64,000 nucleotides of DNA from Fusobacterium varium. GTDB lineage: Bacteria; Fusobacteriota; Fusobacteriia; Fusobacteriales; Fusobacteriaceae. Positions 4,099-23,285 of this stretch are shown here, in pieces. The number at the start of each line of letters is the position of its first letter. The stretch's first letter is position 1. Made by a program: the position numbers and the translations under genes. The notes beneath the pieces were generated by a model. The model saw only the letters and a program-made list of their open reading frames with translations. It was not told the origin of the DNA and made no database searches. The stretch covers positions 1,612,001 to 1,676,000 of the forward strand of contig AP017968.1 in the NCBI GenBank assembly GCA_002356455.1, read 5' to 3'.

Positions 4099-5016
4099 AT
4101 GAAATCAAGAAATATTATAGGAATGATTTTTGTATCCCTTCTTCTTTTATCTTGTGGAAAAACAGGAGTAGAAAGCAATATAAAAAAAGATGATAAAGTA
4201 GTTAGTTTGAGAGAATACAGCACTTTAAAAGAAAATACCCTTCCTAAAAGAAGAGTGGTTATAGGGAAAGTAAAAAATTATTCAAGATTTGGAACACAGA
4301 GAACAGACATAACAACAAAAGATATTCTTGCTTCTGAATTCTCAAATTCTGGAAGATTTAATGTGTTAGAAAGAAGTGACTTAGATTCTGTTATGGAAGA
4401 ATTAGCATTTTCTAATACTTTAGGAGAAAAATCACTATTATCTAAACAAAAGTTCCTTGATACAGATTTTATAGTAATAGGAAGTGTAACAAAGTACGCA
4501 TTAAATACTACAGGAAATAAATCTTTATTTTCAAAGAGTAAGGAACAAAAGGCAGAAGTTGTTATAGAGTTAAAGGTAATAGATGTAACTAATGGAAAAG
4601 TTTGGATTGAAACTGGAGAAGGAAGTTCTAGTGTTACTTTCGGAACTGTACTTGGAGCTGGAACTTATGGCTCATATACTTCATTGGAAGAAGAAGCATT
4701 TAGAGCAGCAGTAATACAAGGAGTAGAAAAAATAGTAAAAAAATTAGACTCAATGCCTTGGAGTGCAAGTATTGTTAAAAAATCTGGAAATAATATAATA
4801 ATTAATTCAGGGGCTAATAGTAATTTAAAAATAGGAACTGAAATGGAAGTTTATAAAATAGGTGCTCCAATAGAATATAGAGGAGAAATTTTAGGATATG
4901 AAGAAGAAAGAGTAGGAAGCGCAGTTGTAACAAATTATATTGGTGAAGAAGCTGCTTCTTTAAGATATGAAGGAAAAAATTTTAATGTTCCTGGCATTGT
5001 AAAAATAAAAAAATAA
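4099..5016 (+). CDS. CsgG/HfaB-family outer-membrane lipoprotein
   Basis: A 305-residue lipoprotein with a signal peptide ending in a clear lipobox (LLLLSC, Cys at about residue 19). The body contains VVIGKVKNYSRFGTQ, the SGRFNVLERSDLD block and FIVIGSVTKY, which are characteristic of the CsgG / curli-production-assembly fold (nucleotide-like alpha/beta domain plus beta-hairpins). CsgG proteins form export pores in the outer membrane. No curli (csgA/B/E/F) genes are nearby, so its cargo is unknown, and a periplasmic-sensor role as in LpoB/YcfM-like relatives is possible. It follows nrnA by 12 bp with an AAGGAG ribosome site and is probably the operon's last gene before a separate sepF promoter. 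Confidence 0.8.
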   Translation: MKSRNIIGMIFVSLLLLSCGKTGVESNIKKDDKVVSLREYSTLKENTLPKRRVVIGKVKNYSRFGTQRTDITTKDILASEFSNSGRFNVLERSDLDSVMEELAFSNTLGEKSLLSKQKFLDTDFIVIGSVTKYALNTTGNKSLFSKSKEQKAEVVIELKVIDVTNGKVWIETGEGSSSVTFGTVLGAGTYGSYTSLEEEAFRAAVIQGVEKIVKKLDSMPWSASIVKKSGNNIIINSGANSNLKIGTEMEVYKIGAPIEYRGEILGYEEERVGSAVVTNYIGEEAASLRYEGKNFNVPGIVKIKK

Positions 5017-5713: not shown

Positions 5714-7221
<1,508 letters not shown>

Positions 7222-7591: not shown

Positions 7592-10502
<2,911 letters not shown>

Positions 10503-18802: not shown

Positions 18803-18836
18803 AAGCCTGACATAAAAAATTCAGTCAGGCTTTTTT
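18803..18836 (+). terminator. Terminator after the SurA-like gene
   Basis: Stem AAGCCTGAC (18803-18811) with GTCAGGCTT (18824-18832), then a T run. It isolates this gene from the recombinase region. Confidence 0.8.
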
Positions 18837-19075
18837 AGTAAAAAATATAACTTCTTGTTTAAATAAAACCTTATTGAGTAAAAAAATAGGATAAAAATCA
18901 AAAATCGTTTATTAACATAAAATTTATTCGTAAAAGATAATTAAAAAAGTATTTATAATATAGAAAAATATTTTTATAAAAAACATTATAAAAATTTTTT
19001 ATAAAATATAATTTTTTAAAAGGAAATAAGTATTTTTTTTGTAATAGCTAGTATATAAGGGTTAATAAATAAATA

Positions 19076-19106
19076 ATGGTTAATATAAATATCTTATATT
19101 AACCAT
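19076..19106. repeat. Left recombination site: palindromic, 13-bp arms, 5-bp spacer
   Basis: ATGGTTAATATAA (19076-19088), spacer ATATC (19089-19093), then the exact inverted copy TTATATTAACCAT (19094-19106). This is the layout of a tyrosine-recombinase core site. Bases 19087-19106 recur as a perfect 20-bp inverted copy at 19861-19880, so the two sites are in opposite orientation around the recombinase gene. Confidence 0.8.
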
Positions 19107-19167
19107 CAACAACGATCTATTGATGAATTTATCATAATTTTGGAAAAAATCAAAAAAGGAGAAAAAA

Positions 19168-19764
19168 ATGGATAAAAGAGGACAGGAAGTTAAATACATT
19201 TGTAAGGAAGATTTAAAAAAATTGAGAAAATATTTCAAATCAAACGATAAAGTAGTAATTTTAGCGTTGATAAATATTGGAGTAAATGTTGGATTAAGAA
19301 TTTCTGATTTATCAAAAATAAGATTTGAAGATATAAATAGTGATTATGTTGTAAAATTAAAAGAAAAGAAAACAAAAAAAATGAGAGAGATTAAATTAAA
19401 TACAGTTTGCCAGAAGTCAATTGAAGAATTAAAGAAATATTATGAAACATTAGGATATTCTAAAGAAAGGGGATTTCTATTTAAATCTTTAAACAGAAAA
19501 TATGTAAAAGAATTGTTTGATAAGCCTATTTCAACTGTTTCAATAAGCAAATATTTAAATCAAGCTAAAGCAGATTTAAATATTTCATATCCCATTGGAA
19601 CACATTCTTTGAGAAAAACATGGGGGCATACAGTTTATAGAGGAACTTTAGATATAGCGCTGGTAATGTCTATATTTAATCATTCGTCTGCAGAACAAAC
19701 ATTAAAATATATAGGAATAGAGCAAGAAATGATTAACAAAGTATACGATAAATTCAAGATATGA
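19168..19764 (+). CDS. Catalytic-only tyrosine recombinase (FimB/FimE-sized)
   Basis: A 198-residue site-specific recombinase. The catalytic set is complete: Arg44 (GLRISDL), Lys in the 66-71 KEKKTKK strand, His146 and Arg149 (THSLRK), His172 (FNHSS) and the nucleophile Tyr181 (KYIG). It begins almost at the catalytic domain, with no separate N-terminal core-binding domain, as in E. coli FimB and FimE (198-200 residues), which flip the fimA promoter. It is encoded between two inverted recombination-type sites. The ATG at 19168 follows AAAAAGGAG. A phage or transposon integrase is less likely: the sites are inverted rather than direct, and no cargo genes are present. Confidence 0.88.
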   Translation: MDKRGQEVKYICKEDLKKLRKYFKSNDKVVILALINIGVNVGLRISDLSKIRFEDINSDYVVKLKEKKTKKMREIKLNTVCQKSIEELKKYYETLGYSKERGFLFKSLNRKYVKELFDKPISTVSISKYLNQAKADLNISYPIGTHSLRKTWGHTVYRGTLDIALVMSIFNHSSAEQTLKYIGIEQEMINKVYDKFKI

Positions 19765-19819
19765 GTTCAATTTTTTAAGTTTATAGAAAGAAAATAGTTA
19801 ATTTATTTAAAAAAAATAG

Positions 19820-19848
19820 TTGATTTATTTTCAAAAATACGATATCAT
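19820..19848 (+). promoter_or_regulatory. Outward-facing promoter inside the putative invertible segment
   Basis: TTGATT at 19820-19825 and TATCAT at 19843-19848 with exactly 17 bp between. The expected start is near 19855, just inside the right recombination site, and transcription would run into the lipoprotein/FadA genes from 19975. Inversion of 19087-19880 would turn it away from those genes. Confidence 0.55.
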
Positions 19849-19860
19849 AAAAAAAGAGAA

Positions 19861-19891
19861 ATGGTTAATATAAGATATTTTTATTACCTAA
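19861..19891. repeat. Right recombination site (inverted partner of 19076-19106)
   Basis: ATGGTTAATATAA (19861-19873), spacer GATAT (the reverse complement of the left-site spacer ATATC), then a degenerate second arm TTTTATTACCTAA. The first 20 bases are a perfect inverted match to 19087-19106. The reversed spacer predicts inversion rather than deletion of the DNA between. Confidence 0.78.
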
Positions 19892-19910
19892 TGAAAAAAC
19901 GTAATTTAAT

Positions 19911-19932
19911 AAAAGAAGTTGCAGCTTCTTTT
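19911..19932 (+). promoter_or_regulatory. Leader hairpin between the right site and the lipoprotein operon
   Basis: A perfect 8-bp stem AAAAGAAG / CTTCTTTT with a 6-nt loop, in the leader of the transcript predicted from the 19820 promoter. It is followed by GACTATT rather than a long T run, so it may be an mRNA stabiliser or weak attenuator rather than a terminator. Confidence 0.45.
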
Positions 19933-19974
19933 GACTATTATAAGTTACGAATAAGATGAAATTGGGAGGGAATT

Positions 19975-20217
19975 ATGAAGAAATTAAGTTTTTTATTTCT
20001 ATCAGCCATTTTAGTTGTTAGCTGTTCAAACGCTAAACAGAGTAGTGATGATCCTTTAGATATTCTTAATCAGAGAAGAAGAGAATATTATGAAAAGGAA
20101 AAAGAAAAAGAAGCAGAACAAGCTAGAAAAGCTGCTGAAATCTCTAGAATGACAGAAAAAGAAAGAAATGAATATGAAATTCAGAGAATAAAAGAAAAAA
20201 TTAAAGAAATGAAATAG
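19975..20217 (+). CDS. Small helical lipoprotein
   Basis: An 80-residue lipoprotein. The signal peptide ends in VVSC (Cys about residue 17). The mature part is almost all charged helix (RRREYYEKEKEKEAEQARKA), suited to a coiled coil, with no recognised domain. It is the first gene of an operon of three lipoproteins and two FadA-family genes; the ribosome site GGGAGGG precedes the ATG at 19975. Small lipoproteins are found with fusobacterial adhesin loci (the rad genes of F. nucleatum), but no direct homology is claimed. Confidence 0.78.
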   Translation: MKKLSFLFLSAILVVSCSNAKQSSDDPLDILNQRRREYYEKEKEKEAEQARKAAEISRMTEKERNEYEIQRIKEKIKEMK

Positions 20218-20254: not shown

Positions 20255-20791
20255 ATGAAAAAAATTTGTGGAATTGTATCTATTATCGCTGCGGGGATAT
20301 TAATAACAGGGTGTAATGATACAGGGAATAAAAATACTAATAATGTTTCTGCACAAATCACTTTAACTGAGAAAGAAAAGCAAAAAGACAAAGATGAAGT
20401 TGCAAGAATATTAGTTTATAAAGCATTATTAGAAGAGGTAAAGAAAGCTGAATTTTCACCTGAAGAGCTTGAAAATATTCAAATAGCTCAAAATCAAATT
20501 AAAATAAATTATTTTATAGAAAGAGAATTAAAAAATAAAACTCAAATTACTGATGAAGAGGCAGCAGATTTTTACAAAAGACATAAAGAACAATTTGATG
20601 ATAAACCTTTAGAAGAAATGCTTCCAATATTATATAAAAGTTTGGCTGTAGAAAAATATAATCAAGCACAAGTTGAATATTATAATTCTATAATCGAAAA
20701 ATATAAATTGAATGATATATTGAAAAAAGAAGGAATTATTAAAGATGAACAAGTAGAAAAAATTGATGGGAAGGAAGTGGAAAAAATATGA
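20255..20791 (+). CDS. SurA/PrsA-like lipoprotein without a parvulin domain
   Basis: A 178-residue lipoprotein: signal peptide with lipobox ITGC (Cys about residue 20), a short Asn/Thr linker, then helices that resemble SurA/PpiC-type chaperones (ILVYKALLEEVKKAEFSPEELENI, then DEEAADFYKRHKEQFDDKP and a final helix pair). The parvulin isomerase domain is missing, so a holdase role is likelier than isomerase. It is paralogous to the protein at 18336-18764. The position just upstream of two secreted FadA-like adhesins suggests a chaperone for their passage, which is inference. It overlaps the next gene by 4 bp (ATGA type). Confidence 0.75.
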   Translation: MKKICGIVSIIAAGILITGCNDTGNKNTNNVSAQITLTEKEKQKDKDEVARILVYKALLEEVKKAEFSPEELENIQIAQNQIKINYFIERELKNKTQITDEEAADFYKRHKEQFDDKPLEEMLPILYKSLAVEKYNQAQVEYYNSIIEKYKLNDILKKEGIIKDEQVEKIDGKEVEKI

Positions 20792-21282
20792 AAAAGACAC
20801 TTATAATTTTGAGTTCTTTACTATTAATAAGCTGTTCTAACAACAATGCTGAAAATACTTCTAATTTATCAGAAAAAGATATGCAGAGAGAAAGATTAGT
20901 TAGATTAGCAATAGAGAAAAAAGAAAAAGAAGAAGCAGCTAAAAAAGAAGAACTAAGACAGAAAGCATTAGCTGAAGAAGCAGAAATGAAGCAAAAAGCA
21001 GCAATTAGAGAAGCTGAATTGAAACAAAAAACTTTAGAAAAAGAAGCTGCTATGAAAGAAAAAGCAGAAGAAGCTAAAAGACAGGAAATTTTAAGAGCTC
21101 AAGAAGCTAAAGAAAAAGCAGCAGCAAAAGAACAGGCTCTTAAAGATCAAAGAATGTCTAGAGAAGAGATATTTAAAGAAATAATTAATATAAATAATGA
21201 ATTAGATGGAAAAAATGTAAGCAAGGAAAGAGTGAAAGAATTAGAAAAAAGACTTGCTGAATTGGAAAAATTAAACAAATAA
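20788..21282 (+). CDS. Long coiled-coil lipoprotein
   Basis: A 164-residue lipoprotein with lipobox LISC (Cys about residue 16). Residues about 35-125 are an unbroken Lys/Glu/Ala helix with TolA-like repeats (EEAAKKEELRQKALAEEAEM and similar), ending in a second short coiled coil (VKELEKRLAELEKLNK). It could span part of the periplasm from a lipid anchor. The start overlaps the preceding stop by 4 bp. No enzyme motif is present. Its Ala/Lys/Glu bias gives weak matches to many coiled coils, so function is open. Confidence 0.78.
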   Translation: MKKTLIILSSLLLISCSNNNAENTSNLSEKDMQRERLVRLAIEKKEKEEAAKKEELRQKALAEEAEMKQKAAIREAELKQKTLEKEAAMKEKAEEAKRQEILRAQEAKEKAAAKEQALKDQRMSREEIFKEIININNELDGKNVSKERVKELEKRLAELEKLNK

Positions 21283-21335: not shown

Positions 21336-21725
21336 ATGAAAAAATTATTAGTAGCAGGAACAATTTTATTATCAGCATCAGCATTTTCTACAGGGGTGAC
21401 AGCAGAATTTGAAAGCCGTTTCAACACTCTAGAGCAAGAATATAAAATGCTTATGCAAAAAGAAGATGAAAGATATAATTCTGAAAAACAAATTGCTGAA
21501 ACTGCAAAGGCAACTTTAGCAAAACAAAGAGAGTTATACAACCAAATTTCAACTAAAGCAGGAAAACTAGGGCAAATCAAAGATGTTAAATTCTACAAAG
21601 AGCAATACGGAGAATTAGCTAAAAAATACCAAGATGCACTTAAAGAACTAGAAGGACAAATGAAAGAACAAGAAAGTATCATTAACAGATTCCAACAATT
21701 ACAAGCTGTAAAAGAAGGAAAATAA
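21336..21725 (+). CDS. fadA: FadA-family adhesin
   Basis: A 129-residue secreted helical-hairpin protein. The signal peptide is MKKLLVAGTILLSASAFSTG, with cleavage probably after VTA, and the mature part aligns with FadA of F. nucleatum throughout: a LEQEYKMLMQKEDERYNSEKQ helix, the turn region, KFYKEQYGELAKKYQDALKELE and a final INRFQQLQAVKEG. FadA proteins polymerise on the cell surface and bind host cadherins. The ATG at 21336 follows GGAGG (21326-21330). Receptor specificity of this member is unknown. It is the fourth gene of the lipoprotein/adhesin operon. Confidence 0.9.
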   Translation: MKKLLVAGTILLSASAFSTGVTAEFESRFNTLEQEYKMLMQKEDERYNSEKQIAETAKATLAKQRELYNQISTKAGKLGQIKDVKFYKEQYGELAKKYQDALKELEGQMKEQESIINRFQQLQAVKEGK

Positions 21726-21774: not shown

Positions 21775-22170
21775 ATGAAAATAAAAACAACTATGTTATT
21801 AGGAGCAGCATTATTACTAGTATCGAGCGTATCATTAGCAGCACCAGCAGCAGGAGTAGATTCAAGATTTTCTCAATTGGAAGCAGAATTAAAAATGCTT
21901 GAACAAAAAGAAAATGAAAGATTTAAAGAAGAAGAGCAAATAGCAAAATCAGCTCAAAATAATTTAAATGTACTTACAAATCTTAGAAATAAATGTGGAG
22001 AAAGAATCAACTACATGACTTCTATGGAAGGAAGAAGTATCTATTCTAATGAAATGAAAAACCTATTAAAACAATATCAAGGTTTTCTTACAGAAATTGA
22101 TAAACAATCTAAAGTAGAAGAAAGAAAAATATTCGAATTTAATCAATTAAAAAGTTTAAGAGCAGAGTAA
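21775..22170 (+). CDS. FadA-family adhesin, second diverged copy
   Basis: A 131-residue secreted protein: signal peptide with cleavage after SLA, then the FadA-type hairpin (VDSRFSQLEAELKMLEQKEN, later NEMKNLLKQYQGFLTEIDKQ and FNQLKSLRAE). It shares the layout and several blocks with the gene 50 bp upstream (SRF-LE-E-KML-QKE-ER, EEQIA), but the middle is quite different and holds a single cysteine (RNKCGER), which the first copy lacks. A disulfide-linked dimer or mixed filament is possible. The ribosome site is AGGAGG. Confidence 0.85.
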   Translation: MKIKTTMLLGAALLLVSSVSLAAPAAGVDSRFSQLEAELKMLEQKENERFKEEEQIAKSAQNNLNVLTNLRNKCGERINYMTSMEGRSIYSNEMKNLLKQYQGFLTEIDKQSKVEERKIFEFNQLKSLRAE

Positions 22171-22281: not shown

Positions 22282-22710
22282 ATGAATTATTTAGACTCAA
22301 AGTTGATTTTATATTTGGTAGTTATATTTTTTATAGTATTTATCTTTATTAAATTAAAAACTGCTTTAGCAATAAGGAATTTGAATAATAAAATTGGAGT
22401 GAGATTTTACTATAAATTCTTAGGAAATATGCAATGGCTGAAGGAACAGATACTTATGGGTAAGTATTTAGAAATGAAATATTTAAATGCAGTGGATGAT
22501 AAAAATAATTCAAATATAATAATATTGCTGGAAAAGAAAGAAGAAAACAGTATTATAAATATTTATTCAGCTAAAAATAAAACAGTGATAATTAAGAATT
22601 TAAAATTAAATGATCAAAGATTTAAAAAATTTATTGAATTTCTTCCTAGAACACTAGCAGAAGATGATTTTTCGAAAGAAAGCGAAACAAACGACTTAGG
22701 GAGGGAATAA
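22282..22710 (+). CDS. Membrane-anchored protein of unknown function
   Basis: A 142-residue protein with one strong N-terminal membrane helix (about residues 8-26, LILYLVVIFFIVFIFIKL) and a basic cytoplasmic domain. No family is recognised. The stop overlaps the start of the next HU-like gene by one base (TAATG), so the two are translationally coupled. The start is the ATG at 22282, with a weak GAAAGTGAG ribosome site. The link to two DNA-binding proteins suggests a membrane-nucleoid or regulatory unit, but that is speculation. Confidence 0.65.
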   Translation: MNYLDSKLILYLVVIFFIVFIFIKLKTALAIRNLNNKIGVRFYYKFLGNMQWLKEQILMGKYLEMKYLNAVDDKNNSNIIILLEKKEENSIINIYSAKNKTVIIKNLKLNDQRFKKFIEFLPRTLAEDDFSKESETNDLGRE

Positions 22711-22991
22711 TGAAAGAGAAAGATTTTATTAAAGTTTACAAAGAAGAAAGAAATCTAAAGAACTTAAAAGAAGCTCAGCATAGAATTTCAACTTTTTGGG
22801 AAACTGTAGAAGAAATATTGCAAGAGGATAAAAAATTAGTGTTCAAAGGTTGGGGAATATTTGAAATAAAGCCTGTAAGAGCTAGAGAATACTGTGATCC
22901 TAGAATAAAAAAAATTAAGAAAACTTTACCTAAAAATAAATTGGTTTTCAGACAGGGAAAAATACTTAAAGAAAATATCAATGTTGACTAG
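22710..22991 (+). CDS. HU-family DNA-binding protein, divergent copy 1
   Basis: A 93-residue protein with the HU/IHF layout: two N-terminal helices, then KLVFKGWGIFEIKPVRAREYCDPRIKKI, which corresponds to the beta-arm entry VxLxGFGxFxxxxRxAR-xNPxTG, and a C-terminal FRQGKILKENIN matching the FxxGKxLKxxVN end. Key turn residues are changed (CDPRIKK for NPRTG), which would alter DNA intercalation. It lies directly ahead of a second HU-like gene and after fadA genes. Confidence 0.78.
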   Translation: MKEKDFIKVYKEERNLKNLKEAQHRISTFWETVEEILQEDKKLVFKGWGIFEIKPVRAREYCDPRIKKIKKTLPKNKLVFRQGKILKENINVD

Positions 22992-23000
22992 AGGGGTACT

Positions 23001-23285
23001 ATGAATAAGAAAGATTTTATTAAACTATATAGAAAAAAATTAAATAATTTAACAATTGCAGAAGCAAAAGAAGATGTGGAAGCAATATTGGAAATTATAG
23101 AAACTGGTTTAAAAAAAGATGGTAAAGTACAATTCTTCAATAAAGGAGTATTTACTGTTGGAAATATAAAACCTAAGACTATAAGTAATCCAAAAACTAG
23201 AGAACTTATGCAAACAACTGAAATGAAAAAGGTAAAATTTAATGCTTCATTTAAGTTAAAAGATAAAATACAAGATAAGAAATAA
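23001..23285 (+). CDS. HU-family DNA-binding protein, divergent copy 2
   Basis: A 94-residue HU-like protein: N-terminal helices (KKDFIKLYRKKLNNLTIAEA), then KVQFFNKGVFTVGNIKPKTISNPKTREL, which keeps the NPKT arm turn, and VKFNASFKLKDKI in place of the FxPGKxLK end. It is 9 bp after the other copy and has the same opening (KDFIK), but the two differ strongly, so they may form a heterodimer. The AGGGG ribosome site precedes the ATG at 23001. Confidence 0.78.
   Translation: MNKKDFIKLYRKKLNNLTIAEAKEDVEAILEIIETGLKKDGKVQFFNKGVFTVGNIKPKTISNPKTRELMQTTEMKKVKFNASFKLKDKIQDKK

Follow-up and report, generated by a model that had tools for sequence, protein, structure and literature searches.

Introduction

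In the Salmonella Hin/fljBA system, a segment of about 1 kb carries a recombinase gene together with a promoter that reads outwards into an operon. Hin is a serine recombinase which uses hix sites and a Fis enhancer. In Bacteroides, the recombinases Mpi and Tsr are associated with many invertible promoters ahead of surface-structure genes, Mpi being a serine recombinase as well. Tyrosine recombinases consisting of the catalytic domain only (198-200 aa) flip the promoter ahead of an adhesin operon in E. coli fimS (FimB/FimE) and in ipuS (IpuA/IpuB). FimB and FimE are encoded outside fimS, and in the UPEC ipuS system the distal repeat lies inside ipuA (PMC6083910). In the Streptococcus pneumoniae PsrA/cod system, a tyrosine recombinase gene lies within a locus that is rearranged via inverted repeats, but it is hsdS coding sequence that is shuffled and not a promoter (PMC7096588).

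Here we describe a locus from Fusobacterium varium Fv113-g1 (genome G000), a strain that originated from a patient with ulcerative colitis (PMC5720691). The stretch of DNA analysed, hereafter the window, is 64,000 nucleotides long. With a probability of about 0.84 we read this locus as a self-contained site-specific inversion switch controlling an operon of FadA-family genes, in which the catalyst, the use of the promoter and switching within a culture are inferred. As with Hin, the recombinase gene lies inside the invertible segment and the test of architecture is met. However, the enzyme is a tyrosine recombinase, failing the test for a serine recombinase, the sites are of a 13-5-13 form and no enhancer was recognised. 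The fimS and ipuS sites are shorter than those found here. Unlike the Mpi and Tsr systems, the window locus comprises one pair of sites, one recombinase and one operon; it is a second class of sites in the F. varium clade, described below, that resembles multi-promoter inversion in Bacteroides.

Results

Layout of the locus

Twelve genomes of the genus were compared. The recombinase gene adjoins the same FadA operon in three relatives besides G000 (G008, G009 and G010), and all comparisons of the locus are therefore between four genomes only, one per species. The features of the locus are as follows (positions in the window; a dot marks features without a strand).

18805..18836, +, intrinsic terminator GCCTGAC-12-GTCAGGC-T6, 3′ of an upstream gene of 142 aa (sequence)
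19005..19075,., conserved non-coding element of the left flank, outside the segment (83-90% identity, four genomes)
19076..19106,., left recombination site, ATGGTTAATATAA-ATATC-TTATATTAACCAT (identical in four genomes)
19106..19135, +, weak candidate promoter of the recombinase, TCAACA-18-TATCAT, inside the segment (inference only)
19107..19860,., body of the invertible segment (reversed in G009 and G010 between colinear flanks)
19168..19764, +, tyrosine recombinase of 198 aa, catalytic domain only (PF00589)
19820..19848, +, candidate operon promoter TTGATT-17-TATCAT, at the right end inside the segment (position, conservation)
19861..19891,., right recombination site, ATGGTTAATATAA-GATAT-TTTTATTACCTAA (sequence)
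19900..19949, +, possible operon-leader hairpin (folding)
19975..20217, +, small lipoprotein, operon gene 1 (lipobox in translation)
20255..20791, +, lipoprotein of 178 aa (lipobox)
20788..21282, +, Lys/Glu-rich lipoprotein of 164 aa (lipobox)
21336..21725, +, FadA-family gene 1 (PF09403, 1.5e-30)
21775..22170, +, FadA-family gene 2 (PF09403, 2e-27)
22710-22991 and 23001-23285, +, two HU/IHF-family genes 3′ of the operon (PF00216)

Both FadA-family genes contain the Pfam domain above its gathering score, which satisfies membership of the FadA adhesins (PF09403), adhesion itself being inferred only from the family. The 178-aa lipoprotein has 13 matches within G000, itself included. The HU/IHF-family pair is kept beside the locus in all four genomes; that it serves as an accessory factor of the switch is no more than a guess. 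HU genes are also found near other recombinases and FadA genes of G000.

The terminator stem downstream of the 142-aa gene is present in the three relatives too, its 12-nt loop exceeding the range of the terminator scan, and it should insulate the switch from upstream read-through. Across the whole 230-bp left flank the four genomes are 70-75% identical, against the higher identity of positions 19005-19075. No promoter could be recognised in this conserved element.

Two inverted sites share a crossover spacer

The left site is a perfect palindrome of two 13-bp arms around the spacer ATATC. At the right site the inner arm is the same as that of the left site, the spacer is the reverse complement and the outer arm is degenerate. 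The sites match exactly in inverted orientation over 20 bp (19087-19106 / 19861-19880), and over 25 of 26 positions when extended (19081-19106 / 19861-19886). When the two intergenic flanks were dinucleotide-shuffled 200 times, exact inverted matches reached at most 15 (20 observed) and scores at most 16 (23 observed). Inverted recombination sites with an identical crossover spacer, one of the features that define a DNA inversion switch, are thus present. The first-pass annotation had proposed these inverted sites, with their ATATC and GATAT spacers and 20-bp match, and both the sequence and the shuffles uphold it.

The arm does not occur as a paired site elsewhere in the G000 genome; a 12-bp arm at position 1690168 was rejected as a lone half-site without a partner. 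The exact left site had no match in a scan of genome contigs from which near records may have been left out, and the exact right site was absent from viral contigs.

The recombinase

The product of 19168-19764 matches Phage_integrase (PF00589, 5e-21). The catalytic residues R44, H146, R149, H172 and Y181, together with the beta-hairpin lysine, are invariant in ten homologues. The R-K-H-R-H/W-Y set within a PF00589 domain qualifies the protein as a tyrosine recombinase, and the initial description of a catalytic-only enzyme of 198 residues with all catalytic residues was correct. We infer that this protein is the catalyst of the inversion. The hexamers of the only candidate for its own promoter are poorly conserved. 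In G010, single-base indels, most of them in homopolymers, disrupt the reading frame (L030:8542-9325); these are likely to be sequencing errors, though a decayed gene remains possible.

The recombinase belongs to the same broad phage-integrase family as FimB and FimE (phrog_216). By length, with a catalytic domain only (198 aa against 200 and 198), it passes as a member of the FimB/FimE group, but a close sequence relationship is lacking: identity with FimB is 20% over 162 aa and no useful alignment with FimE was obtained. The first-pass annotation had likened the locus to the fim switch. This likeness holds for the size of the enzyme and for the proposed inversion of a promoter ahead of adhesin genes, but not for the position of the recombinase inside the segment, which is Hin-like, nor for its sequence.

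Other Fusobacteriaceae have homologues at 47-57% identity, most of them plasmid-borne or on plasmid-like contigs, and the nearest outside the clade are small tyrosine recombinases, ~50-57% identical, mainly from Fusobacterium plasmids and plasmid-like contigs. A scan of genome contigs with the recombinase protein returned no relative, with the same caveat that near records may have been left out. Among the homologues tested, no convincing inverted sites were found around the gene; only at the FadA locus do such sites flank the recombinase (score 23-24 against 11-14 in shuffles). The simplest reading, which is an inference, is that the switch arose when a plasmid-type recombinase was taken over. 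These plasmid-borne relatives would also suit a plasmid-type module for resolution or integration whose insertion ahead of the operon was accidental, inversion being only a side reaction that brings the host no benefit. We regard this as very unlikely, since inverted sites permit inversion but neither resolution nor excision, and the module has the same position in four species with its promoter end conserved.

A paralogue of 75-77% identity beside an autotransporter operon (L002/L003, L017, L015) was considered as a second switch and rejected, having no significant flanking inverted repeat and the same order in three genomes. Separately, a 6.4-kb stretch containing a 76% recombinase paralogue is present in two copies in G000 that are 99.95% identical (L002 and L003; G000:C1:3156432 and 3237238).

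The segment has inverted repeatedly

The order of the segment in G008 is that of the window. In G009 and G010, the equivalent of 19081-19886 aligns in reverse (90% in each) and the flanks on both sides are colinear. The first-pass annotation had asked that the inverted order should be sought in related genomes and that the repeats should be conserved there; the former is seen in G009 and G010, and the latter are kept in every relative carrying the locus. Both orientations between unchanged flanks are thus observed, as expected of a DNA inversion switch, between species and not within a culture. Within the 26-bp match the outer arms differ at a single base (19086 / 19881); in every genome this base stays with its flank, which places the crossover inside the shared 20-bp core (19087-19106 / 19861-19880). 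The degenerate outer arm of the right site likewise remains with the right flank in both orientations.

The four genomes were grouped using twelve flanking genes (5.3 kb). G000 with G010 and G008 with G009 was supported by 124 sites, against 45 and 36 for the other groupings. The window orientation is shared by G000 and G008 and the inverted one by G009 and G010, and orientation therefore differs within both sister pairs. This conflict with the tree of the flanking genes requires at least two inversions. Both orientations exist in nature, their junctions fall within the 20-bp core and flips have recurred.

Nothing direct suggests that the inverted order is an assembly artefact in both genomes, beyond the fact that a repeat, albeit a short one, is present. 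A repeat of 26 bp is too short to mislead a long-read assembly, G009 and G010 are both single contigs and the flip was seen separately in each; this explanation is scarcely credible. More serious is the possibility that inversions were rare events fixed as the species diverged, with no switching rate relevant to a population and hence no phase variation. Each assembly shows a single orientation and, in one of the four, the recombinase gene as sequenced is interrupted, as this would predict. However, the sites, the catalytic residues and the promoter end are retained in all four genomes, and orientation differs even between sister genomes. We consider rare fixed inversions unlikely and favour a working switch, in which alternation among the cells of one culture (phase variation) is an inference, every assembly giving one orientation.

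A candidate promoter inside the segment faces the operon

The candidate TTGATT-17-TATCAT is the only plus-strand sigma-70-like promoter in the ~225 bp that precede the first gene of the operon. It lies where it had first been placed, just inside the right site and facing three lipoprotein and two FadA genes. Its score (9/12) is no better than chance in such AT-rich DNA, with 12 sites of this strength over 1.4 kb against 10.9 expected. As sites of equal strength are common by chance, the call rests on position and conservation and not on score. The non-coding stretch that bears it (92-98 bp) is 91-96% identical across the four genomes, against 88-92% for the coding part of the segment and 70-75% for the left flank. 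In G000 and G008 a promoter is directed at the operon, whereas a search upstream of it in G009 and G010 revealed no sigma-70-like promoter.

Published RNA-seq of Fv113-g1 described two neighbouring FadA homologues, FV113-G1_14340 and FV113-G1_14350, as 'highly constitutive', a term that compares growth conditions and not orientations (PMC5720691). Interpolation of locus tags gives an index of 1421 for the FadA pair of the window and of 1119 for the one remaining adjacent pair; on this assignment the expressed genes are very probably the window pair. High expression in the predicted ON orientation is consistent with the switch and does not prove it.

The same data could be taken to mean that the operon has its own promoter, located right of 19891 and driving it in either state, the sites being real and used but switching chiefly the recombinase or a leftward transcript. 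The FadA pair was called constitutive (PMC5720691), and the leader to the right of the site is both conserved and structured, its hairpin folding in three of the four genomes (z approximately -1.7 to -2.5) with some paired changes. Nevertheless, the interval from the right site to the first gene showed no sigma-70-like promoter in any one of these genomes. Moreover, read-through from upstream is unlikely because a stem-loop followed by six T residues closes the upstream gene and should stop it, and high expression was reported for a strain whose segment lies in the predicted ON orientation. A constant promoter right of the site is accordingly improbable in our view. An open reading frame running from the right site into the lipoprotein in G008 was dropped as it is not conserved.

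We therefore prefer the inversion switch as the reading of this locus, and infer that the operon is transcribed from the segment promoter, its expression being switched by inversion. In the proposed mechanism, the 198-aa recombinase encoded within the segment would bring about exchange between the inverted sites at the ATATC spacer that they share, flipping ~0.78 kb that carries its own gene and the promoter at the right end. As oriented in the window, the promoter is predicted to read into the three lipoprotein and two FadA-family genes (ON). When flipped, it would face the terminator of the upstream gene and leave the operon without a recognisable promoter (OFF).

A second class of invertible promoters

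A paralogous operon at 1.301-1.304 Mb comprises two HU genes, two lipoprotein genes, two FadA genes and an autotransporter gene. Ahead of it lies a perfect inverted repeat of 26 bp, its copies 207 bp apart. The elements of this class are located as follows.

L101:4131-4156 / 4364-4389 (G000:C1:1301130-1301388), second FadA switch, with the other class of site (perfect 26-bp inverted repeat)
L165-L184, 21 second-class pairs in G000:C1; further pairs in L185-L237

The L101 segment contains a promoter, TTGACA-18-TATACT, that faces away from the HU-HU-lipoprotein-lipoprotein-FadA-FadA-autotransporter operon, and this second switch is apparently OFF as sequenced.

The motif GTTCNCNTTTATNNATAAANGNGAAC was searched with up to two mismatches, a palindromic site being counted once per strand, and occurs at 45, 30, 44 and 46 places in the four genomes. 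It was found in none of 57 other Fusobacteriaceae genomes, and a reversed control pattern did not occur. No second-class site lies within the window. From 72 regions in the four genomes, 65 inverted pairs were obtained, 115-207 bp apart. The central dinucleotide agrees in the recombination register in 64 of these, whereas shuffling of partners gave 20.5 on average and never more than 31, and the agreement holds over several different dinucleotides. The 65 pairs are not independent, many elements being duplicates of each other.

Most of the segments contain a near-consensus promoter, typically TTGACT-17-TATAAT. By best score this points away from the neighbouring gene in 55 of 65 cases and towards it in 7 (3 uncalled), several of these calls resting on weak promoters. 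Two elements, one in G008 and one in G009, are flipped relative to their homologues. Judged from translations, the downstream genes are mainly autotransporter-like, with some of outer-membrane, capsule and acyltransferase type.

A gene for a tyrosine recombinase of 189 aa sits beside an HU gene (L024:9828-10397, minus strand, with HU at 9439-9711, minus strand; L202:6126-6695, with HU at 6813-7085). It occupies the same place in G000 and G008 and is present in 10 of the 12 genus genomes. This protein is a candidate for an invertase acting in trans, without direct evidence. Its distribution does not support its being the second-class enzyme, as it also occurs in most other Fusobacterium genomes, which lack the motif.

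Discussion

We found no earlier account of promoter inversion in Fusobacterium, although key genome-wide surveys of inversions were not covered and their tables could list these loci. We think it very probable that the F. varium / F. ulcerans clade has a genome-wide programme of surface phase variation of two kinds, on the scale of that in Bacteroides and undescribed in Fusobacteriota: the self-encoded FadA switch, and some 15-22 short invertible promoters per genome that share a 26-bp site, are served in trans and keep a second FadA operon and numerous autotransporters switched OFF apart from rare ON variants.

The locus offers a compact natural test case: a single tyrosine recombinase, a pair of sites and a single promoter fit into less than 0.9 kb. 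Fusobacteria are believed to attach to host cells in colitis and colorectal cancer through two groups of surface proteins, FadA-family adhesins and autotransporters. If the genes for these proteins do switch, the state of the switch, and not the strain or the medium, may be what separates the isolates, inocula and transcriptomes compared to date. Should this be true, results on host binding would need the state of the switch to be stated.
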